Assembly (NCBI GenBank): GCA_001873365.1
Contig: MNYZ01000018.1
Span: forward strand, 1 to 64,000
DNA from: Oscillatoriales cyanobacterium CG2_30_40_61
GTDB lineage: Bacteria; Cyanobacteriota; Cyanobacteriia; Cyanobacteriales; Microcoleaceae
Direction: 5' to 3'
DNA: 64,000 nucleotides
Shown here: in pieces, positions 8,520 through 45,318 of the stretch
Position numbering within the stretch: position 1 is the stretch's first letter
Layout of the letters: each line of letters starts with the position of its first letter
The notes under the pieces: model-generated
Told to the model about the DNA's origin: nothing
What the model saw: the letters and a program-made list of their open reading frames with translations, nothing else
Database searches by the model: none
Position numbers and translations under genes: made by a program

Positions 8520-9324
8520 ATGAAAATTATTAACTTTTGTCAACCCGCTATTGCTCTAATTAATAAACTCAAATATCCTCAGAAATTTATTTTAATTAGT
8601 TTTATTTTTATTATTCCTTTAAGTTTGATGATGTATCTTCTAATTTCAGAAGTCCAGAGTCGGATTGATTTTGCAGTCCATGAAAAGTTAGGAAATACCT
8701 ATCTCCGTCCTTTACGACAAATTTATCCCCAGGTTTATCAAGCTCAATTGTTAATGGCTAATCCTAATTTTAGTCCTGAAGATCAAACTCAGTTAGAAAA
8801 AATTAAAGTAGAGATTCAGAAGCAGATTAACATTTTAGATGAAATCGATCAAAAAAAATGTTCAACGGATGAAATCCGATAAAAATTTGACCTTTTCTTT
8901 AATTGATTATTATAACGGATTTTTAAGTATTTGTGGTCAACATGAGGAACTAATTTTGGTGCGATCGCAATTAGAATGTGATCCCAAATCCGATCCAGAA
9001 TGTTTTCCTTTTGTAGAAACGATTGATACAATCGATTTAGGATTTCCCATTGGTTTAGAAGCGGATATTACGGATTTTATAGGTTCTATTAATATTAAAT
9101 TAAATGCTGGAGATGGTGCTGTTTTATATACCGATGGGATTACGGAAGCCGAAAATAATCAAGGTCAATTTTATTCTTTAAAAAGACTCTGTGAAATTGT
9201 CAAAAAACATTGGCATTTAACCGCAGCAGAAATTAGGAAAGCGGTGATTGATGATGTGCGATCGCATATTGGTAAACATAAGGTTTATGATGATATTACT
9301 TTAATTGTTTTAAAACAAAGATAA
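8520..9324 (+). pseudogene. Membrane-anchored SpoIIE/PP2C-type phosphatase, internally deleted
   Basis: Two parts of one gene survive in different frames. The 5' part (8520-8882) encodes about 110 plausible residues: a cytoplasmic start, one transmembrane segment (FILISFIFIIPLSLMMYLLI) and the start of an extracytoplasmic region. The 3' part, from about 8884 to 9324, encodes the C-terminal end of a SpoIIE/RsbU-type serine phosphatase, with LTFSLIDYYNGFLSICGQHEE, GDGAVLYTDGITEAEN and VYDDITLIVLKQR. The middle (remaining sensor, HAMP and the metal-binding first half of the phosphatase) is missing, and the frame shifts at the junction near 8840-8884. An active enzyme is not possible. Confidence 0.8.
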
Positions 9325-9464
9325 GTCAGATCATGTCTTGATCCTTGAAAATCTAATAAAATTTTATTTGTGCATTTTTTAGTTGAGGTTTTAAAATGAT
9401 AAAATAAGAATTACTAGATATTAGAGGTTATAATTCAAAAAGCGATTAAAAAATACCTTAGACA

Positions 9465-9674
9465 ATGAAAATTAATCTTAACAACGACCAACAAATTATA
9501 GAAGAAGTATTTAATATTTTAATTGAAAATTTAGATACTTCTAAAATTAGCCGTTTTTGGACAATCTGTAACTTAGGAAGTGGCGACTATTCCCAACTTA
9601 AAGATAAATTATTTGCCAGAGAAACTGTTGATAGTCTTTATGAAAAAATCCAAGCCCAAGAAAATGATAATTAA
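9465..9674 (+). CDS. Small acidic protein of unknown function
   Basis: A 69-residue protein. The N-terminal half is an amphipathic helix (QQIIEEVFNILIENLDTSKISRFW as a landmark around residues 9-32). It is followed by a conserved-looking motif, NLGSGDYSQLKDKLFARETVDSLYEKI. Similar short proteins occur in many cyanobacteria and some sit beside toxin-like genes, so an antitoxin or adaptor role is possible. No partner gene is seen here. The neighbours are the phosphatase pseudogene and a convergent tRNA nucleotidyltransferase gene. Confidence 0.65.
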   Translation: MKINLNNDQQIIEEVFNILIENLDTSKISRFWTICNLGSGDYSQLKDKLFARETVDSLYEKIQAQENDN

Positions 9675-9712
9675 ACCGCAATTATTTTTTTTAGTTTAGT
9701 TATATGAAGTTT

Positions 9713-12466
9713 TTATTGTAACGGATAATTCCGTTGTAAAAAGGCTTCCGCAGAAGGGCGATCGCCAATTTCTCCATCTAAGGTAACTGTTAATAAATCA
9801 TCCAAAATTTGCTTAAATTGATGACTAGGTTTATATCCCATGGCTTTTAAATCATTACCATTTAAGGGGGGTTTAACCTCTCGCCATTGGGTTAAATATT
9901 GCCAAATTCGCTTTCTAACTGGTCGAGGAGATTGCACTGCGATCAAAATTAACATCGATAAACTATAGGGTTTAAATAACCAGAAAAACTGACTATTTTT
10001 TTCGAGTTCAGAGATAGTTTGAATGATCTGATTTTGGGCTAATTCTAAACTTTTTAACCGTTCAATAGTTCCCACCTGTAGCTGAAGATTCTGGGCTACT
10101 TTTTCCCGATATTCTGGGGATAAATAGGCTATTAATACCTCCAAACGCACTTCCCAATGGTTTAAATTTTTTTCTGAATCAAAGCGTTGTAAACAACGAT
10201 CAACAGACCGTACTTGTCGCCATAACTGCGGACTTAATTCTAAAGTTGGATGAATACATCGTAACGCTTTTAACTCCCCTAAAAGTTGTAACGAGCGTTT
10301 CCAATCGGCAGATTGAAAAATATATCTTAACTCACTTTTTAACCGGGTTTCTAAAGCGGGAACTCGACGATTTTGGTCAAAGGATTTATTACTTTCTTCC
10401 CGTTGTTTTTCATAAATTCCACTACTAATCGCATAACTAATATAGTCTTTTGTTTGAGCTTCAATTTCAAATCCTAACCGCACCGAGAACCGCACCGCCC
10501 GATAAATTCGAGTCGGATCTTCAATAAAACTATTGGCGTGTAAAATCCGAATTTTTCCAGATTCTAAATCCGATACTCCCCCAAAAAAGTCTAATAATTC
10601 CCCCACCTTGGGAGCAGTTAACCGTAATGCTAAGGCATTAATTGTAAAATCCCGTCTATATAAATCCTGACGAATGGAGCTTGCTTCTACTTGAGGATTT
10701 GCCGCCGGGTAGGGATAAAATTCCGTTCTGGCGGTGGCAATATCAATCCAAAGAGAATCTAAAATTGGGTCATTATGCCATAATAAAGCGGCGGTTTGAA
10801 ATTGTCCATGAATATCTAATCTTGCTGCGGGATAATGTTTTTGTAAATCCTGGGCTAATTCCACCGCCGGGGAAACAGATGATCCAAGATCTGGGTTAAA
10901 ATTAGCATTTTTATAACAGCCATCCACCACAATATCAATATCATTTAGTAATACCGTCGTTTCCGATTCTGCTAACAATAAATCCCGTACCGCACCCCCG
11001 ACTAAATAAACCTGCCATCCGCGTTTTTCTGCTAAAAATGATAGGCGGTTTAGTAATGTTAATAAAGGTGTGGCTAATTTTTCTGCTAAGAGTTCCTCCA
11101 GGCTGGTACAAGTCAACCCCGGAATACAGCCTTTAAAAATTGATTTTTGAGGCCGTTGTTGTTGATGAAGTAACCTTAAAACATCGGTTCGGGTAACAAT
11201 TCCGACTAAATTTTTGTCTTGTAAAACGGGTAATCTACCAATATCATAAGTCACCATTAAGGCTTCAATTTCGGGTAAAGTTGTTTCGGGAGTAATGGTT
11301 TTTAATTGCGGTGTCATATAGCCTTTCACCGGGGCATGACTAAAGCCATGATGCAGGGCAATATCTAAGTCGCGACGGGAAATAATTCCTACTAATTGAT
11401 CCTGTTCATCTACCACCGAAAGACCGGAATGATCATAACGTAATAAAATCCGATGGGCTTCTTCTACGGAGGTATCGGGGCGAATAGTTCTCACCGGAGA
11501 AGACATTAATTCCTGCGCCGTTGGTGGGTGGGGAATTTGTGCTTTTAATTGTTCAACTAATTGCCCTAAAATTTCAGTAAAATTGCCTTCTTTTAAAACC
11601 ACGGAAGCCGCCCGGGTATGACCGCCACCACCATAGGGTTTAAACAATTGATTTAAGTTGGTTTTTTCAATCCGAGATCGTCCAATAATACTTAACCGAT
11701 CTCCTTCCTCCTTACCATATTGATTAGCTAATAGTAAGGCATCACTTTCAGTTAAATCAATTAATTCCGATGCCAAAGTTGATAACCCCGGCACATATTC
11801 ATCGGTTTTAAATAATATCCAAGCGACGGTATAACCTCTAATTGTTGATTTTTGTAGCTGTTCTAAAGCTAAACTTAATAACTCTTGTAATTTTTGGGGT
11901 AAACCGGGTTCTACATATTCGGCAATCACGGGTAAATTAGCGCCTTGTTCCATTAACCAAGCTAATGCTATGGCATCTCTGGTGGTGGAATGGGGAAAGG
12001 TTAAGGAACCCGTATCTAAGTGAATTCCTAATGCCATTACCGTCGCTTCTGCGGTGGTTAAAACCGGTTTTTGAGGTTGATTTCTTAACAGTTCTACAAT
12101 TAATGTAGTAGTCGCTCCCACTTCTTCAATATAGGTTTCTGTGGCGGGAATATCAGATATGATATCTGGATGATGATCGTATATTCTAATGGCGGATAAA
12201 TTGGCTAACTTCAACCATTCGGCACTTTTTCCTAAGCGATCGCAATTTTGGGTGTCTACCACACTAATTGCATGAATTTTATTAGGATTCACAGAGCGCC
12301 GTTCAATTAAAGCAAATTCATCTCGATATAATGCTAAAAAATCCCTCACCGCCGGATGACTTCCCCCCGCCAAAACAATCCGACTTCCTGGGTAAATTCG
12401 AGTTAATCCCACCGCCGCCCCCAGGGCATCAAAATCAACGGTTGTATGGCATAAAATTAGGTGCAT
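9713..12466 (-). CDS. DHH phosphoesterase-CBS-tRNA nucleotidyltransferase fusion
   Basis: A 917-residue multidomain protein. Residues 1 to about 310 form a DHH/DHHA1 phosphoesterase-like module, with DFDALGAAV, DTQNCDRLG, YDHHPD and the DHHA1 motif GGGGHTRAAS. Two CBS domains follow at about 315-435 (LMSSPVRTIRPD and GYMTPQLKTITPE). The rest is a class II poly(A) polymerase/CCA-adding head with LVGGAVRDLLL and the metal-binding pair in DIDIVVDG, then RRDFTINALAL. Proteins of this layout in cyanobacteria act on tRNA 3' ends. In organisms with split CC- and A-adding enzymes they supply one of the two steps, and which one is not readable here. It is encoded just downstream of rsmB on the same strand. 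Confidence 0.88.
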   Translation of the reverse strand: MHLILCHTTVDFDALGAAVGLTRIYPGSRIVLAGGSHPAVRDFLALYRDEFALIERRSVNPNKIHAISVVDTQNCDRLGKSAEWLKLANLSAIRIYDHHPDIISDIPATETYIEEVGATTTLIVELLRNQPQKPVLTTAEATVMALGIHLDTGSLTFPHSTTRDAIALAWLMEQGANLPVIAEYVEPGLPQKLQELLSLALEQLQKSTIRGYTVAWILFKTDEYVPGLSTLASELIDLTESDALLLANQYGKEEGDRLSIIGRSRIEKTNLNQLFKPYGGGGHTRAASVVLKEGNFTEILGQLVEQLKAQIPHPPTAQELMSSPVRTIRPDTSVEEAHRILLRYDHSGLSVVDEQDQLVGIISRRDLDIALHHGFSHAPVKGYMTPQLKTITPETTLPEIEALMVTYDIGRLPVLQDKNLVGIVTRTDVLRLLHQQQRPQKSIFKGCIPGLTCTSLEELLAEKLATPLLTLLNRLSFLAEKRGWQVYLVGGAVRDLLLAESETTVLLNDIDIVVDGCYKNANFNPDLGSSVSPAVELAQDLQKHYPAARLDIHGQFQTAALLWHNDPILDSLWIDIATARTEFYPYPAANPQVEASSIRQDLYRRDFTINALALRLTAPKVGELLDFFGGVSDLESGKIRILHANSFIEDPTRIYRAVRFSVRLGFEIEAQTKDYISYAISSGIYEKQREESNKSFDQNRRVPALETRLKSELRYIFQSADWKRSLQLLGELKALRCIHPTLELSPQLWRQVRSVDRCLQRFDSEKNLNHWEVRLEVLIAYLSPEYREKVAQNLQLQVGTIERLKSLELAQNQIIQTISELEKNSQFFWLFKPYSLSMLILIAVQSPRPVRKRIWQYLTQWREVKPPLNGNDLKAMGYKPSHQFKQILDDLLTVTLDGEIGDRPSAEAFLQRNYPLQ

Positions 12467-30254: not shown

Positions 30255-31664
30255 GAGGGGGTTTGGGGGAGCGATAAGTCCCACACTGAATTTCACAAAA
30301 CAAAAAAAACAACCACCAAATCAGTGTGGGTTACATGGACTCCCCCAAGTTAATTTTGCGTTTGTCAATCCCGACAAAATTAACAATAATATGTTAAAGT
30401 ATATCCAAGAGTTTTGAAAGCGACAATGTTTCAGGCATACAAATTCCGAATCTATCCAAATACCGAACAGCAAATCGCCTTAGCCAAAAGCTTTGGTTGT
30501 TGCCGTTGGTATTGGAATTATGCCCTGAACTTGTGCCAAGAAACCTATAAGCAAACGGGAAAAGGATTATCCAGAAAAGTGATTCAAGGATTGTTACCTC
30601 AACTAAAAAAGGAATATCCTTGGTTGGCAGATGCCTATTCCCAATGCTTACAAGTTGTCGCTCTCAATTTATCTACGTCTTACAAAAACTTCTTTGAGAA
30701 ACGGGCGAGATTACCTCGGTTCAAATCCAAGCATGGCAGACAATCAATCAGTTATCCCCAAAACGTCAAGTTGGAAGGGGATTATCTAAAACTACCTGGT
30801 CAAGTCGGATTAGTTTATTGTTTGCGTCATCGGGAATTTCAAGGCGTAATTAAAACCGTTACTGTCTCAAAAAATCCCGATGGGAAATATTATGCTTCTA
30901 TCTTAGTTGATGACGGCAAGGAAACACCCAACCTATCAACCAATGGAAAAGCAATTGGGATTGATTTAGGGTTAACTCATTTGGCGATTACTAGCGATGG
31001 GGACAAGTATAGCAACCCCAAACATTTTGCTAAACATCAACGCAACTTAAAACGAAAACAACAGAAATTATCCCACAAACAAAAAGGAAGTAAGGGTAGA
31101 CAAAAAGCTAAATTAAAAGTTGCTAAAGTCCACGCTAAAATCTCTCGTTGCCGGGAAGATTTTCTCCACAAACTATCCCGCAAGATAGTGAACGAAAACC
31201 AAGTGATTGCTGTAGAAAATCTAGCAGTTAAGAATATGGTGAGAAACCATAAATTAGCCAGAGCGATTAGTGATTGTGGTTGGGGAATGTTCTGTACAAT
31301 GCTCAAATACAAAGCCGAAAAAGAAGGGAAAACCTATCAAGAAGTTGATCGATTTTTCCCTTCTTCTAAAACTTGTAACGTCTGTCTAAATCAAGTAGGT
31401 AGTTTACCGCTTGATATTAGAAGTTGGACTTGTGAATATTGCCAAACAACTCATGACCGAGATATAAATGCTTCTATCAATATCAAAAATGAAGCCTTGC
31501 GGATACTTCGACTACGCTCAGTACAAGTTTTGTCGTTAGGAACTAGCGACACTGCCATGTTGAGGGGGTGTAAGTCGTCTGATGAAACTTCTGTTTCTTC
31601 AGATGCTATCCCCATTGAAACTGGAAGCCCACACTTACTCGTGCCAGAAGTGTGGGTAGTTCAC
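30255..31664 (+). mobile_element. TnpB-only IS200/IS605-type element
   Basis: The boundaries are approximate. The left end holds CCCACACTGA (30280-30289) pairing with TCAGTGTGGG (30321-30330). The right end holds CCCACACTT (31628-31636) pairing with AAGTGTGGG (31648-31656). Shared hairpin sequence at both ends, no terminal inverted repeats and a lone tnpB gene fit the IS605 group. There is no tnpA, so movement would need a transposase in trans. The right end abuts the 3' end of rsfS. Confidence 0.65.
30263..30384 (+). promoter_or_regulatory. Highly structured leader upstream of tnpB
   Basis: TTGGGGGAG (30263-30271) pairs perfectly with CTCCCCCAA (30340-30348) and encloses the CCCACACTGA hairpin. 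Immediately next, GTTAATTTTG (30349-30358) pairs perfectly with CAAAATTAAC (30375-30384). The two stems are adjacent, so they could stack. This exceeds a simple end hairpin and may be both the transposase-recognition structure and an RNA fold ahead of tnpB. Confidence 0.55.
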
Positions 31665-31694
31665 TCGAATTGCCAATCAACTCGCTCGGCATGA
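30426..31694 (+). CDS. tnpB: RNA-guided endonuclease TnpB (IS200/IS605 OrfB)
   Basis: About 422 residues from the ATG at 30426 (MFQAYKFRIYPN); the TTG four codons upstream is less likely. The RuvC triad is intact: D180 in GIDLGL, E264 in VENLAV and D346 in HDRDINAS. The zinc finger has CNVC and CEYC (C317, C320, C336, C339). Characterised TnpB proteins are nucleases guided by an RNA made from the element's right end, so this copy could be active. The last 60 or so residues after NIKNEALRIL overlap that right end and even the antisense of rsfS, as expected for tnpB-omega RNA overlap. Confidence 0.92.
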   Translation: MFQAYKFRIYPNTEQQIALAKSFGCCRWYWNYALNLCQETYKQTGKGLSRKVIQGLLPQLKKEYPWLADAYSQCLQVVALNLSTSYKNFFEKRARLPRFKSKHGRQSISYPQNVKLEGDYLKLPGQVGLVYCLRHREFQGVIKTVTVSKNPDGKYYASILVDDGKETPNLSTNGKAIGIDLGLTHLAITSDGDKYSNPKHFAKHQRNLKRKQQKLSHKQKGSKGRQKAKLKVAKVHAKISRCREDFLHKLSRKIVNENQVIAVENLAVKNMVRNHKLARAISDCGWGMFCTMLKYKAEKEGKTYQEVDRFFPSSKTCNVCLNQVGSLPLDIRSWTCEYCQTTHDRDINASINIKNEALRILRLRSVQVLSLGTSDTAMLRGCKSSDETSVSSDAIPIETGSPHLLVPEVWVVHSNCQSTRSA

Positions 31695-36349: not shown

Positions 36350-37750
36350 ATGAATCATTTTGATCAAGCTCGTTCTAGTTTAAAACAAACTTTATCCCGT
36401 TATCACCATTTACAACGGGGGCGACGCAGTTCCCATCCTGAATTACAAGCCACCTTACAAAAACAGTTAGAAATCCTCTCAACTAATTTAGAAAAACTAG
36501 AACAAGGAATTATTAGAATTGCGGTATTTGGTTTAGTCAGTCGCGGAAAATCGGCGGTTTTAAATGCTTTATTGGGGGAAAAAATTCTCCAAACTGGGCC
36601 GTTAAATGGGGTAACTCAATGGCCCCGTTCTATTCGTTGGAGTGTGCCTTTATCTCAGATTGAAGCACCAAATCGGATTGATAATATTGACGAATCAAAT
36701 CCGATTCAAGTTGAGTTAATTGATACCCCAGGATTAGATGAAGTCGCCGGACAGGTGCGGGGGGATATGGCAAAGGAAGTTACCCGCCAAGCGGATTTAA
36801 TTTTATTTGTGGTAGCGGGGGATTTAACTAGAACTGAATATGAGGCTTTATTAGAATTACAAAATGCTCATAAACCATTAATTATTGTTTTTAATAAAAT
36901 TGATTTATATACAGAAATAGAACGGGAAAAAATCTATCAAAATTTACAAAATCTAGCCAAAGGTAAAGATATTTCTATTGTTGAATCTTCTAATAAATCT
37001 CAACCTTTTGAAATTGTCAAGGTATCAGCCGAACCCGCACCCATCCAGTTAAGAATTGAATGGCCGGATGGTCGAATAACATACCAATGGGAATCTCCCG
37101 CTTCCCAAATTGATGAATTAAAACAGATTATTTTAAAGCTATTAAATCGAGAAGGACGCTCACTTTTAGCTTTAAATGCTTTAGTTCAAGGGAGAGAAGC
37201 GGAAAGGATTATCGCTCGTCAAAGTATTGAATTACAAGCGACGGAAGCAGAGGAATTAATCTGGAAATTTACTTGTTATAAAGCCGTAGCCGTAGCCTTA
37301 AATCCGATTGCAATTTTAGATGTTTTGGGTGCAACTATTAGCGATTTAATTTTAATTCGGTCTTTAGCCCGTTTATATGGTTTACCCATGACCAGTTATC
37401 AAGCGGGGAAATTATGGAAAAAAATTCTATTAAGTTCGGGAGGGTTACTATTAGCTGAAATGGGTAGTGGTTGGATATTGGGATTTGGTAAAAGTGCGGC
37501 TGGGTTAGCAACGGATCTCGCTAATTATGCCGGAATTGCTATTACTCAAGCCTCAATTTCTGCCTATCTAACCTATACGGTTGGTCAGGCGGCGCAAGTC
37601 TATTTAGAAAAAGGCTGTACTTGGGGTGAACAGGGTATTGATACCGCTATTCAAGAGATTTTAAATCAAGTTAACCGAGATAGTTTTATCCTGCGCTTAA
37701 AGTCGGAAATTGATCGAAGTTCTCAACTTGATTCTTTGGAAGTAGATTGA
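36350..37750 (+). CDS. Dynamin/Era-like GTPase with DUF697-type C-terminus
   Basis: A 466-residue protein. A coiled N-terminus (1-55) precedes a P-loop GTPase: G1 GLVSRGKS at 61-68, G3 DTPG at 125-128 and G4 NKID at 182-185. The C-terminal half (about 295-440) contains several hydrophobic helices (ALNPIAILDVLGATISDLIL and GIAITQASISAYLTYTVGQAA) as in DUF697 proteins. It is therefore probably a membrane-associated GTPase; role unknown. The last 28 bp overlap the convergent gene's 3' end. Confidence 0.82.
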   Translation: MNHFDQARSSLKQTLSRYHHLQRGRRSSHPELQATLQKQLEILSTNLEKLEQGIIRIAVFGLVSRGKSAVLNALLGEKILQTGPLNGVTQWPRSIRWSVPLSQIEAPNRIDNIDESNPIQVELIDTPGLDEVAGQVRGDMAKEVTRQADLILFVVAGDLTRTEYEALLELQNAHKPLIIVFNKIDLYTEIEREKIYQNLQNLAKGKDISIVESSNKSQPFEIVKVSAEPAPIQLRIEWPDGRITYQWESPASQIDELKQIILKLLNREGRSLLALNALVQGREAERIIARQSIELQATEAEELIWKFTCYKAVAVALNPIAILDVLGATISDLILIRSLARLYGLPMTSYQAGKLWKKILLSSGGLLLAEMGSGWILGFGKSAAGLATDLANYAGIAITQASISAYLTYTVGQAAQVYLEKGCTWGEQGIDTAIQEILNQVNRDSFILRLKSEIDRSSQLDSLEVD

Positions 37751-40995: not shown

Positions 40996-43431
40996 TCAAC
41001 TCAAATCTTTTGTAATATTCTGAAATAGCCAATAATCTTGATATTCTGATAAAATAAAATCCATAGCTTCTTCTAGTTTGACTTCTAAATCATAATTTTG
41101 AATATCTACTATCATTTGATAAAATAACTCAAACAAAACTCGATAATCTTGATTCCAAACCATCAATTTTCCATTTTTAGAATGTTGCAGTTTTTCTAAC
41201 TCAAATAGGCTTTTCTGACCACTGATGGGATAATCGGTTTGATCTCGACAGAGAATAAATTTAAAATTAGGTTTTAAAATCAATAACTCATTCCAGTTTT
41301 TCATTCTATGGAAAAAGGGCGCTCCACCTAGATGCAAAAATCCCACGACAAAACTATGGGTTTGAGTTTGAATAACTAAATGTTCAGGAATCACCCGTTT
41401 TCCTAAGTGTAAAACATCAAAACTCAAGGGAGAAATAACTAACATTAAGGCTTCTAAAATCGTGATTAATTTTCCTAAATCGTCACTATCGGTGAGGATT
41501 TTAGGTTTAGCTAAATTCGCTTCTAAACAAATTCGTTGCGCGTTTAAATAATTTTTGAGTTGACGTTTAGACGCGGAATCAAAGGAGGGGATAAACCCAA
41601 ATAATTCCTCGTTAAATACTTCTAAATTTTGCTGATTTTTTTCCTCTAAAACCTTGATAATTTGAGTCATTCCCTGTTTCATTTGTTCCAGTTCAATTTC
41701 TAACTGTTTTAACCGGATTTCCACCTCGGTTTCATCGGTTTGTAATACGGGAATTAGTTGATGTTTCGGGAGAGGAATTCCATCAACTTTATAGCGGTAA
41801 TAATCCGCCGCCACATTCAGGACTGTCCGAATAGAAATATGATTTAAAATTCCAGTAATTTCGTCCACTTCAAATAAATCATCCAGGGTGACATCTAACC
41901 CTTGTAATTTTAAATTCAATAACTGTTTTAACTCTTGATTAGAAGGACGGTTGAGAAACACCTGGGACTGGGATACCCGATCAATAATTGACCCATCAAA
42001 AACCTGTTTAAATTGTTGCCAGCGATCAGGAAATAGATTTAAAATAATTAAACTATTCGGAATATGGGTAAAAATCTCTTTAATCGCAGTTCCAAAACAG
42101 TGTAATAACCGTTCATTATGTTTTAATCCTAATCCTTCTAACTGATCAAAAACAATGATTAAAGGTTCATCTAATAGGGATAAACACCCCAAAACCTTTA
42201 ACGCTTCTAAAGATGCTTCCTCCCGACTCAATTCATCTTCCCAAGAGGGTAAACCTACCCGGTCTAATTCTTCTTGGGGGAGATTATTCATGGCTAACCA
42301 TTGGGTAATAATTTGACGCCGATTAAAGTCCGTATAGCCACAAAATTTCACAATTCCCTGTAAAAATTTAGGGGCGTAACCGGCGGCGGAAAAGTTATTA
42401 TTCCACCACTCTAAAGCCCGTTTTTCAATATGTTGCCAAAATTCCCGTTTGGTCTTGGTTTCCGCTTGGGATAAGTCGGTAAATAGCTTTAAATTTCCCC
42501 CTTGAATTAGTTGTAAGATCTTTTCATCTTTTTGGGTTTTTGAGGTAAAATAGTTATCGGTAGATTTAATAATCTCGGCAAAACTATTAGCCAATAAATA
42601 CTCAAGCTGAGTGTGAATACTATTTGGAACAATTTGGATTAAGGATTCTAAAATTCGACTATAGGTATGAAATAAAACCGTATCAGAATTATTGGGTTGA
42701 CGGATAAATAATAATCTATTTTTGGTTAATAAATCCTTGGCTAATCGCATCATCAGATGGGTTTTACCTGATCCGGGTTCCCCAATCACAATCGCCCCTT
42801 TTGTTTGATGATTAAAGTCTAATTTAATATCTGCTAAAATAGATTTTAAGCGATCGCATTCTTCCGCAAAAATTCCGCGAAAATCCGGGTGATCCTGAAA
42901 AGGAGTATCAACCCGACTGCTTCCAAAAGGGTTAGGTTGGGTTTTTAATTCTTTTTTCAGAAATTCATTTGCAATATGTTTATAAAGTTGATAGGTAAAT
43001 AACGCATCATATTTAGCTCTATGGGCAGAATCTTTCTTGAAAAATTGACCCTCTAATTTAAGTCTTAAATGTTTACTTAAAGCCTCTAAAGAATGACTAT
43101 TTAATTGGGGTAAATAGCGTTGAGCTAGTTCAAAACTACACTGGAAATCTAATTGGGGAGCAGAGATTCCCACGGCTTTAAAAGTATTTCTCAATATTTC
43201 AATATCATGTTGAGCATAATGACAAATAATCACTTGAGATTGAGCAATTTCCAGAAATTCTGTTAAAATTACTTTTAACGGTTTAGTTAGATGGGCAATT
43301 TTAGGACTTTGGGGATGATTTTCCACAAAGGCTTCATAGATTAATTCTCCTTGCTCATTGACAATGGCTAATTCTCTTAAAATTGGTTGTCCTTCCGTAT
43401 CAATAACAATAAAGTTTTTTGTAGTTTTCAT
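40996..43431 (-). CDS. DEDDh 3'-5' exonuclease fused to a P-loop ATPase
   Basis: An 811-residue multidomain protein. Residues 1-160 match an RNase T/DnaQ-like exonuclease with all five catalytic residues: D11 and E13 (IDTEG), D76 (HYAQHD), H137 and D142 (HRAKYDALFTYQLY). A P-loop ATPase follows, with Walker A GEPGSGKT at 217-224 and Walker B LIIVFDQLE at 424-432, extending to about 560. A coiled coil at about 567-605 leads to a C-terminal region (about 640-811) I cannot assign. It stands alone, convergent to nothing. The combination resembles defence or DNA/RNA repair ATPases, but no known system is recognised. Confidence 0.8.
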   Translation of the reverse strand: MKTTKNFIVIDTEGQPILRELAIVNEQGELIYEAFVENHPQSPKIAHLTKPLKVILTEFLEIAQSQVIICHYAQHDIEILRNTFKAVGISAPQLDFQCSFELAQRYLPQLNSHSLEALSKHLRLKLEGQFFKKDSAHRAKYDALFTYQLYKHIANEFLKKELKTQPNPFGSSRVDTPFQDHPDFRGIFAEECDRLKSILADIKLDFNHQTKGAIVIGEPGSGKTHLMMRLAKDLLTKNRLLFIRQPNNSDTVLFHTYSRILESLIQIVPNSIHTQLEYLLANSFAEIIKSTDNYFTSKTQKDEKILQLIQGGNLKLFTDLSQAETKTKREFWQHIEKRALEWWNNNFSAAGYAPKFLQGIVKFCGYTDFNRRQIITQWLAMNNLPQEELDRVGLPSWEDELSREEASLEALKVLGCLSLLDEPLIIVFDQLEGLGLKHNERLLHCFGTAIKEIFTHIPNSLIILNLFPDRWQQFKQVFDGSIIDRVSQSQVFLNRPSNQELKQLLNLKLQGLDVTLDDLFEVDEITGILNHISIRTVLNVAADYYRYKVDGIPLPKHQLIPVLQTDETEVEIRLKQLEIELEQMKQGMTQIIKVLEEKNQQNLEVFNEELFGFIPSFDSASKRQLKNYLNAQRICLEANLAKPKILTDSDDLGKLITILEALMLVISPLSFDVLHLGKRVIPEHLVIQTQTHSFVVGFLHLGGAPFFHRMKNWNELLILKPNFKFILCRDQTDYPISGQKSLFELEKLQHSKNGKLMVWNQDYRVLFELFYQMIVDIQNYDLEVKLEEAMDFILSEYQDYWLFQNITKDLS

Positions 43432-43659: not shown

Positions 43660-43773
43660 ATGAAAGTTTATCCTAAACCTCTGCGCTCTAACCCCTACAA
43701 CAGTTACCGCGACCCTAAAACCGGACGCTGGTTAGTTGTCAAACCCCTGGAGAATTCCGCTAGAATGGATTAA
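43660..43773 (+). CDS. Conserved 37-residue protein
   Basis: ATG to TAA encodes MKVYPKPLRSNPYNSYRDP followed by KTGRWLVVKPLENSARMD. A good GGAGGGTGATT ribosome binding site precedes it. The sequence has a single-strand-like folding pattern (YRDPxTGxWLVV) that I have seen in small cyanobacterial hypothetical proteins, so it is likely real. No function is known. It lies in the 423-bp gap upstream of Cry-DASH; the rest of the gap shows no other gene. Confidence 0.65.
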   Translation: MKVYPKPLRSNPYNSYRDPKTGRWLVVKPLENSARMD

Positions 43774-43854: not shown

Positions 43855-45318
43855 GTGACCCCAAAACGCATTTTAATCTGGTATCGAAACGATTTACGGC
43901 TTCATGACCATCAACCCCTATCCTCAGCATTAAACACTAAAGCACAGATTATTCCTGTGTATTGTTTTGACCCCAGACAGTTTAAAAAAACCTGCTATGG
44001 ATTCCCCAAAACCGGAGCTTTTCGCACTCAATTTTTATTAGAAAGCGTTACAGATTTACGTCAATCTTTCAGAAATTTAGGAAGTGATTTAATCATCCGT
44101 CAAGGTCAGCCAGAAATAGTTATTCCTGAATTAGTTAAAATCTTAAATATTGATGCGGTCTATTATTATCAAGAAGCCACTTCCGAAGAATTAACCGTAG
44201 AACAAAATTTAAAAACTGCCTTAGCTGCTTTGGGGATTGTTGTTAAATCCTATTGGGGTGCAACCCTTTATTCTATCACAGATTTACCCTTTTCTATTCC
44301 TAAACTTCCAGAAATTTTTACTCAATTTAGAAAGCAAGTTGAATCTCAATCAATTATTAATAGTCCGTTTTCTTCCCCTCAACAATTACCTCCTTTACCC
44401 GAAATTGAATTAGGAGAATTACCCACAATTCAAGATTTAGGTTTAGAAATACCTGTTTTTGATCCTCGGGCAGTGATGGAATTTAAAGGCGGAGAAACCG
44501 CAGGATTAGACCGTTTAAAAGATTATATTTGGGAACAGGATTGTCTGAAAACCTATAAAGAAACCCGCAATGGAATGTTAGGGGCAAATTATTCTTCTAA
44601 GTTTTCCCCCTGGTTAGCTTTAGGTTGTTTGTCTCCCCGACTAATTTATAATACAGTTCAAACCTACGAAAAAGAACGGGTAAAAAATGATTCAACTTAC
44701 TGGCTAATTTTTGAATTATTATGGCGAGACTATTTTAAATTTATTGCTTTAAAACATGGAAATAAAATATTTTATCCTCAAGGTCTACAGGGAATTTCTA
44801 TTCCTTGGAAAGACAATCCCAAACAGTTTGAACAATGGCAACAGGGAATCACAGGTTTTCCCTTAGTTGATGCGAATATGCGAGAATTATTAACCACAGG
44901 ATTTATGTCAAACCGAGGGCGGCAAAATGTAGCCAGTTTCCTGACTAAAAATTTAGGAATTAATTGGCAAAGGGGGGCAGAATGGTTTGAATCCCTATTA
45001 ATTGATTATGATGTTTGTAGTAATTGGGGTAACTGGAATTATACCGCCGGAGTGGGTAATGATGCCAGAGGATTCCGTTATTTTAATATTCTCAAACAAT
45101 CCAAAGATTATGATCCTAATGGGGATTATGTTAAACACTGGATCCCCGAATTAAGGGATTTACCGCCATCAAAAGTTCATCAACCTGGGAAATTATTACC
45201 CGTGGAACAAAAACGCTTTGGGGTAATTTTAGGAGTTGATTATCCTCAACCCATGGTTGATTTAGAAAAATCCGTTCAAGCAAATCAATTGATTTATGAC
45301 GCTGCGGTTAGAATTTAA
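43855..45318 (+). CDS. DASH-type cryptochrome / DNA photolyase
   Basis: A 487-residue flavoprotein starting at GTG. The N-terminal antenna-binding domain begins RILIWYRNDLRLHDH. The C-terminal FAD domain has SKFSPWLALGCLSPRLIY, WLIFELLWRDYFKF and ITGFPLVDANMRELLTTGFM, then SNRGRQNVASFLTKNLG and VCSNWGNWNYTAGVGND. The last motifs are diagnostic of Cry-DASH rather than classical CPD photolyase. The family repairs CPDs in single-stranded DNA and may act in light signalling. Followed by a perfect palindrome. Confidence 0.93.
   Translation: MTPKRILIWYRNDLRLHDHQPLSSALNTKAQIIPVYCFDPRQFKKTCYGFPKTGAFRTQFLLESVTDLRQSFRNLGSDLIIRQGQPEIVIPELVKILNIDAVYYYQEATSEELTVEQNLKTALAALGIVVKSYWGATLYSITDLPFSIPKLPEIFTQFRKQVESQSIINSPFSSPQQLPPLPEIELGELPTIQDLGLEIPVFDPRAVMEFKGGETAGLDRLKDYIWEQDCLKTYKETRNGMLGANYSSKFSPWLALGCLSPRLIYNTVQTYEKERVKNDSTYWLIFELLWRDYFKFIALKHGNKIFYPQGLQGISIPWKDNPKQFEQWQQGITGFPLVDANMRELLTTGFMSNRGRQNVASFLTKNLGINWQRGAEWFESLLIDYDVCSNWGNWNYTAGVGNDARGFRYFNILKQSKDYDPNGDYVKHWIPELRDLPPSKVHQPGKLLPVEQKRFGVILGVDYPQPMVDLEKSVQANQLIYDAAVRI

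Follow-up and report, generated by a model that had tools for sequence, protein, structure and literature searches.

A DEDDh exonuclease fused to an Orc/Cdc6-type conflict ATPase in a single cyanobacterial gene, with a possible role against foreign DNA

What a protein that joins a 3'-5' exonuclease to an ATPase in one chain does in a cyanobacterial cell is the question raised by a gene on contig MNYZ01000018.1 of Oscillatoriales cyanobacterium CG2_30_40_61 (assembly GCA_001873365.1), within a stretch of 64,000 nucleotides that is here called the window. An earlier note, made from the sequence alone, described the gene as an orphan fusion of a DEDDh exonuclease and a P-loop ATPase, for which a defence role seemed reasonable and DNA repair the alternative. 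The open reading frame (ORF) of 811 codons reported there was found intact on the minus strand, the plus strand across the same positions being full of stops, and the gene is 94-95% identical to those of Planktothrix paucivesiculata PCC 9631 and P. rubescens PCC 7821; the window is Planktothrix DNA. That the gene encodes a DEDDh exonuclease fused to an Orc/Cdc6-type conflict ATPase is well supported by profile homology and conservation. We regard it as a new single-gene variant of the Orc/Cdc6 conflict ATPases; as for its role, defence is preferred, as yet unproven, over repair or replication, its main rival. The kinship of the ATPase with predicted anti-invader operons, together with the plasmid context, favours an action on foreign DNA, and we tentatively propose that the protein could be an ATP-controlled 3'-5' DNA exonuclease of this clade acting against invading or transferring DNA.

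The exonuclease was recognized by the Pfam family RNase_T (PF00929) over residues 31-150, with 34.2 bits against a cut-off of 24. For conservation, 66 proteins were aligned (72 homologue entries minus five fragments and one duplicate), and the five DEDDh residues, which the note had found intact, proved near-invariant, being conserved in 57-58 of the 58 exonuclease-bearing rows, with D11 present in 62 of the 63 rows that have a letter at that column. With a profile of 38 homologues, the closest structures in the Protein Data Bank (PDB) were PolC (E 1.5e-9), DnaQ (1.6e-4) and RNase T (0.006), and the residues beyond the exonuclease had no significant match among solved structures. The DEDDh domain is common to the PolC and DnaQ proofreading exonucleases, but the window protein has no polymerase part. 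Exonuclease models of DinG, PolC and DnaQ types were also matched in PADLOC and NCBIfam, those shown from NCBIfam far below their cut-offs. A DinG with an N-terminal 3'-5' exonuclease has been described (PMC12345164), and there too an ATP-driven domain follows the exonuclease; this domain is an SF2 helicase in DinG, whereas it is an Orc-type AAA+ here, and only the exonuclease part matches DinG models.

The ATPase part begins with an almost invariant linker, NPFxSxRVDxPFQxHxD, and both Walker motifs are present as the note had reported, with G217, G220, G222 and K223 of Walker A and F428-D429-Q430-L431-E432 of Walker B in all 66 aligned proteins. The Pfam family AAA_16 fell just under its cut-off (30.8 against 32.6 bits). 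The label of P-loop ATPase could be made more specific, residues 160-560 being homologous (hhalign, 99.6%) to two cyanobacterial families, named here g1 (around 680 amino acids, aa) and g2 (around 610 aa); the value for g1 was again 99.6% with 36 members, and the homology of the core spans about 306-346 columns. The domains and their order are as the note gave them.

In all five g1 loci examined, the ATPase gene is followed by an FtsK-type gene of one family (blastp); a gene of 266-313 aa lies upstream, complete in four loci and truncated at the end of the contig in the remaining one. Both FtsK-type proteins scanned carry PD-(D/E)XK, FtsK-alpha and FtsK domains, and one adds a 3'-5' exonuclease. 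This layout, seen in the nearest relatives found for the ATPase, matches the description of the Orc/CDC6-linked HerA/FtsK-capture systems in section 22 of PMC10853773, where they are predicted to act against invaders and show an FtsK-type layout with an occasional fused exonuclease. The naming of g1 as Orc/CDC6 rests on that section and on the operon match; the g1 profile had no significant match among solved structures, Cdc6 being listed at E 0.48 in the PDB. The loci L121-L124 and L216 are likely cyanobacterial cases of these systems.

BrxD, of the BREX systems, is classed as an ORC-Cdc6 AAA+ in PMC12839542. The cut-off of the BrxC/BrxD family PF10923 was passed by one g1 member (L123), and no match to it was detected for the window protein or at the homologue's place in eight other genomes. 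When the window-family profile was compared with PF10923 members, a collinear match over 289 columns was obtained with a probability of 13.1% and a score of 33.7, against a maximum of 24.1 in 30 column shuffles, g1 and g2 themselves reaching 38% and 89%. This collinear match puts BrxD/BrxC in the same AAA+ clade, and no BREX gene was recognised around the window family in the scans made. Homology therefore places the window ATPase in the same clade as the BrxD and HerA/FtsK-capture ATPases, yet it appears to belong to neither system. The capture systems have in common with the window gene a homologous ATPase core, a C-terminal domain in the same relative place, perhaps the same inactive restriction endonuclease (iREase), and, in some of them, a 3'-5' exonuclease, there fused to FtsK. 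Unlike them, the window family is a single gene with the DEDDh exonuclease fused to the Orc ATPase itself, most loci examined have no FtsK/HerA or active restriction endonuclease (REase) gene, and the window protein ends soon after the C-terminal domain, so that a C-terminal winged helix is not evident.

Some other loci with ATPases of this clade were seen along the way. FtsK-type proteins with PD-(D/E)XK are encoded beside Orc-like ATPases at 5594-8001 of L124, where a 3'-5' exonuclease (DNA_pol_A_exo1) is added, and at 12040-14109 of L216. A second cyanobacterial three-gene unit, found in L125, L127-L129, L139 and L140, consists of a 214-228 aa protein, a same-clade ATPase of around 600 aa and a gene of 462-502 aa, both third genes scanned encoding DUF1802 proteins.

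The C-terminal part stays unassigned, as the note had left it, with no Pfam match beyond noise at E <= 1, although it includes near-invariant residues in the 66 proteins (N712, N714, R729, D730, R764 and others). Against a joint g1-g2 profile it gave a collinear match over 162 columns, weak in probability (18.8%), with a score of 30.4 compared with 21.1 for the best of 60 column shuffles and 15.1 for the reversed control. The matches to g1 alone (3.0%, score 23.5, with 21.1 for the best of 40 shuffles) and to g2 alone (1.2%, score 19.9) were weak. As a lead, this domain may correspond to the inactive REase domain placed after the Orc core in PMC10853773. AlphaFold models of the whole chain and of residues 600-811, with five Planktothrix rows each, had a mean pLDDT of 35 and 37, and the coiled coil proposed in the note is compatible with a helix that is seen only in the model of pLDDT 35 (Table 1).

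Table 1. Coordinates of the gene, its parts and its divergent neighbours in the window.
Feature	Position	Strand	Basis
Complete gene of 811 codons, from ATG to the stop at 40996-40998	40996..43431	-	ORF listing and homologues
DEDDh 3'-5' exonuclease domain, around residues 5-160 (D11, E13, D76, H137, D142)	42952..43419	-	Pfam RNase_T, conservation, PDB profile match
Orc/Cdc6-like (BrxD/HerA-capture type) AAA+ ATPase, around residues 160-560	41752..42954	-	hhalign 99.6% with the ATPase families of ~680 aa and ~610 aa; PF10923 members collinear but weak
Walker A GEPGSGKT, residues 217-224	42760..42783	-	Lysine in 66/66
Walker B LIIVFDQLE, residues 424-432	42136..42162	-	D429 and E432 in 66/66
Predicted long helix, possible coiled coil, residues 567-597	41641..41733	-	Secondary structure of low-confidence model only
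C-terminal domain, around residues 620-800, possibly inactive restriction-endonuclease-like (iREase)	41032..41574	-	Collinear but weak profile match with the C-terminal part of related ATPases
37-codon ORF MKVYPKPLRSNPYNSYRDPKTGRWLVVKPLENSARMD, divergent from the gene	43660..43773	+	Retained next to the gene in the Planktothrix loci available
DASH-type cryptochrome, divergent neighbour	43855..45318	+	TIGR02765, E 9.8e-189

All three parts are under purifying selection, with dN/dS of 0.09-0.19 for the exonuclease (12 pairs that have the domain), 0.02-0.14 for the ATPase (16 pairs) and 0.07-0.35 for the C-terminal part (16 pairs), and low values also in exonuclease-less members; dS was above 1, that is saturated, in some parts of three pairs, and one C-terminal value rests on a dS of 0.008. 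The conserved catalytic and Walker residues and the low dN/dS show that the feature is not due to chance.

Matches in PADLOC-DB 2.0.0 were confined to the exonuclease stretch (DEDDh and PDC-S48) and to short ATPase stretches (mad8, TRIP13 and GajB). MADS was considered and dropped because mad8 also matches a HerA-like protein, so that the match is to the P-loop. The P-loop region also shows similarity to NACHT/nSTAND defence proteins (such as NF053860 DS41_1 and EruA), always below the curated cut-offs (20.0 against 26.7 and 21.6 against 34 bits), and no repeat-type sensor of their style was seen by Pfam at the C-terminus. No published description of this fusion was found by title or abstract opening, in a search that covered little subscription literature. 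The statement of the note that no named system has this order holds for an Orc-type ATPase in the literature searched, DinG being exonuclease and SF2 helicase.

In order to know how widespread the gene is, overlapping samples of genomes were searched, some of the matches being fragments. In a phylum-wide sample of 386 genomes, 30 had matches with E <= 1e-80, all of them belonging to the class of the window, and only weak partial matches are among those listed outside it, the best with E 5e-10. Within the order, 83 of 388 genomes had matches with E <= 1e-30, and within the class 38 of 388 with E <= 1e-60. Among plasmid records, seven, all cyanobacterial, had a match spanning 80% or more of the query. 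No full-length relative was found in phages, with matches to the exonuclease part only, or in viral contigs, with two short P-loop matches. The family is likely restricted to cyanobacteria, judging from searches in which chromosomes outside the phylum were covered by a peptide scan that reaches close relatives only. Remnants are common: some copies are reduced to a single domain, others have internal deletions or in-frame stops. This would be expected if the gene is dispensable, and we count it in favour of defence. Among unusual copies, the homologue at 8851-10785 (-) of L116 has 644 aa, with exonuclease and ATPase and without the C-terminal domain, and in L088 (8766-11134, -) the gene consists of two frames of 377 and 461 aa that overlap, which a frameshift, a programmed shift or a sequencing error would explain.

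The context of the gene was studied on plasmids, where six of the seven full-length copies were examined, the seventh (IITB3) being on a plasmid of the same size as that of IITB5. Downstream of the gene and on the same strand there is a GmrSD/HEC-05 gene in Nostoc HK-01 and in Nostoc C057 (there interrupted by an ISL3 transposase gene), the Thoeris pair ThsB-ThsA on the 33-kb plasmid of Synechococcus elongatus PCC 11801 and a type IIG enzyme in S. elongatus IITB5, the gaps to the downstream defence gene in these same-strand cases being 34, 31, 120 and 46 bases. Upstream of the gene, a HEC-05-like gene and DISARM DrmA-B-C are found in Calothrix NIES-22, and HerA-like and NurA genes in Tolypothrix PCC 7910. 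With one neighbour taken per side, two tiny ORFs skipped and a PADLOC threshold of E <= 1e-8, matches were found for 6 of the 12 immediate neighbours, one of them weak (PDC-S18), on five of the six plasmids, compared with none of 10 distant genes (Fisher one-sided p 0.012). These controls were drawn at regular intervals from the 64 genes lying 7 kb or more from the gene on the same plasmids; the cut-off and the intervals were set ahead of the control scan, though with the annotations already known. The term orphan fits many chromosomal copies and fails for the plasmid ones, and homologues are not confined to the vicinity of repair or RNA-maturation genes.

The limits of the shared plasmid DNA were also compared. 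The two Nostoc plasmids share a block that runs from 106 bases before the gene to 3 bases after GmrSD, plus two short matches, and the pair of gene and GmrSD was found again in a third locus, L214. In the two S. elongatus plasmids the shared DNA, with an integrase and the end of parA, stops 7 bases after the gene (at 22434 of L039 and 17324 of L040), and different defence modules lie beyond: Thoeris on one plasmid, and on the other the type IIG enzyme together with genes for a toxin-antitoxin and a helicase. These boundaries fit a unit that would work with defence genes, and the stop of the homologue in the two S. elongatus plasmids may mark a defence insertion hotspot.

For the favoured action on foreign DNA, the following mechanism can be proposed. 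Binding of ATP would drive oligomerisation on DNA, the C-terminal domain, possibly an inactive REase, would help to choose the target or partner, and the exonuclease would then digest from exposed 3' ends, which on plasmids could come from a neighbouring endonuclease (GmrSD/HEC-05 or type IIG). The family would add a single-gene architecture (DEDDh exonuclease, Orc/Cdc6-like AAA+ and possible inactive REase) to an ATPase clade that recurs in bacterial conflict systems and is, in PMC10853773, predicted rather than tested. The copy beside Thoeris on the plasmid of S. elongatus PCC 11801, available as a pure axenic culture, makes the role testable by simple deletion, and the exonuclease-less lineages are natural controls for the ATPase acting alone.

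Several data weigh against a defence role, which the ATPase kinship and the plasmid neighbourhoods support. To begin with, the plasmid sample is of six, two of them close relatives, and the distant genes outside the scan (54) include, at the least, an N-6 methylase and a Swt1-HEPN gene, whose names suggest defence. Pfam was also run on 20 neighbouring proteins, 19 from chromosomes or draft contigs and one from a plasmid. Most of the 19 have housekeeping or regulatory functions, among them acetate kinase, aspartokinase, a glycogen debranching enzyme, PFOR, a DEAD-box helicase, RF3 and EF-G-like GTPases, a sensor kinase and a transporter; for two of the 20 no family was matched. Of another kind are the GmrSD from the plasmid, MoxR-type and DUF2201 proteins, and a 3'-5' exonuclease encoded separately. 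A PADLOC comparison between the neighbours of 17 chromosomal copies and as many control regions from their own genomes favours neither side (each set covers 116 of the 140 ORFs chosen, leaving out three repeat-context loci with their paired controls and very long or repetitive ORFs): the maximum for any model was 3 of 116 near the gene and 2 of 116 in the controls. As many as 261 models matched near the gene against 135 in the controls, these being counts of models and not of proteins, and the first 25 listed are kinase, methyltransferase and Cas12f-like models, which ordinary genes match too. Besides the gene, 24 ORF families recur in at least 4 of 68 loci, and the three of them scanned with Pfam (c20, c21 and c22) were a DEAD-box helicase, acetate kinase and one with no family. 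A HerA/FtsK partner is not in the usual locus, among the annotated or scanned part of the neighbours, with the one exception of Tolypothrix PCC 7910, where the HerA-like gene stands three positions upstream. In one chromosomal copy, a separate 3'-5' exonuclease gene (DNA_pol_A_exo1; L101, 11399-12304, -) lies directly upstream.

The history of the family points in the same direction. An 82-member tree with four distant ATPases as its root was made by a quick method, from columns filled in at least 90% of rows, and has some long branches; L088, L118, L208 and L209 were left out as split or truncated, L031 and L032 as near-duplicates and L084 as a duplicate record. It tracks taxonomy, with 23 changes of family label, the minimum possible being 18, against 58.8 in shuffles. 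The exonuclease is absent from 7 of the 82 rows, at two separate places nested among exonuclease-bearing members (L090, in which it is cut off by a stop, being counted as bearing it), so that it was lost at least twice; since the other parts stayed constrained, not every function requires it. The DEDDh residues are kept in nearly all the exonuclease-bearing homologues. The gene is therefore passed on chiefly within families and lost frequently, and it has moved to some extent.

Because of this inheritance, the chromosomal context and a link with a cryptochrome, a role in genome maintenance stays as a serious rival, even if on balance we regard it as less likely than defence. An Orc-like loader would bring a proofreading-type exonuclease to damaged or stalled DNA, for repair or replication restart, as a lineage-specific accessory gene. 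The proofreading enzymes PolC and DnaQ are indeed the closest structures of the exonuclease, and HerA-NurA adjoins one plasmid copy. In Planktothrix, the window and a 20-kb stretch of P. rubescens have in common, plus a short repeat, only a 4.3-kb block with the DASH cryptochrome, the 37-codon ORF and the gene, and this block of cryptochrome and gene is kept in 6 of 8 other Planktothrix genomes (with the cryptochrome unmatched beside the gene in the other 2), although the other flanking genes of the window lie elsewhere in 7 of the 8, the eighth, G602, keeping the window order. Such a block fits a link to light or DNA damage. On the other hand, in the 68 clustered loci the cryptochrome family occurs solely in those of Planktothrix and in Tolypothrix, there at a distance of 7.3 kb; a LexA-type box was not found near the gene, the matches in the window being fewer than by chance; the patchy presence in the class, with copies often broken, would be odd for core repair; and the plasmid copies have defence neighbours.

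A broader version of the defence proposal is that of a general finisher nuclease, an Orc-type ATPase platform that would pair with interchangeable adjacent modules (GmrSD, type IIG, Thoeris or DISARM) and digest invader DNA from the ends that those create, the exonuclease-less members using a nuclease in trans; we hold this to be unlikely. Still less probable is a function in the plasmid backbone (stability, incompatibility or copy control) that would anchor a cargo hotspot with defence genes as cargo: on both S. elongatus plasmids the gene and parA are divergent and the gene belongs to the shared DNA, but many copies are on megabase contigs, and in the Nostoc plasmids gene and GmrSD are together inside the shared block while the surrounding plasmid DNA is unlike. 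An RNA-directed nuclease, trimming RNA like RNase T under control of the ATPase in an abortive response or in RNA maturation, is very improbable: DEDDh enzymes include RNase T, which names the Pfam family, and four loci of one genus share an upstream gene family that is a DEAD-box helicase in the one scanned, but DNA-proofreading exonucleases are closer by the E values given above and the ATPase relatives pair with FtsK-type proteins.

Other features of the window can be mentioned. The 37-codon ORF MKVYPKPLRSNPYNSYRDPKTGRWLVVKPLENSARMD, between the gene and the cryptochrome, is preceded by GGAGGG, and it is also kept in L003 and L004, where the cryptochrome has no match beside the gene. At 36350-37750 (+) there is a dynamin-like GTPase with DUF697, matched by PADLOC LeoA models with E 5.7e-17 and by the slr1306 family below its cut-off. 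Judged by eye from its translation, not by profile, the ORF at 30414-31694 (+) encodes a TnpB-like transposon-encoded nuclease.

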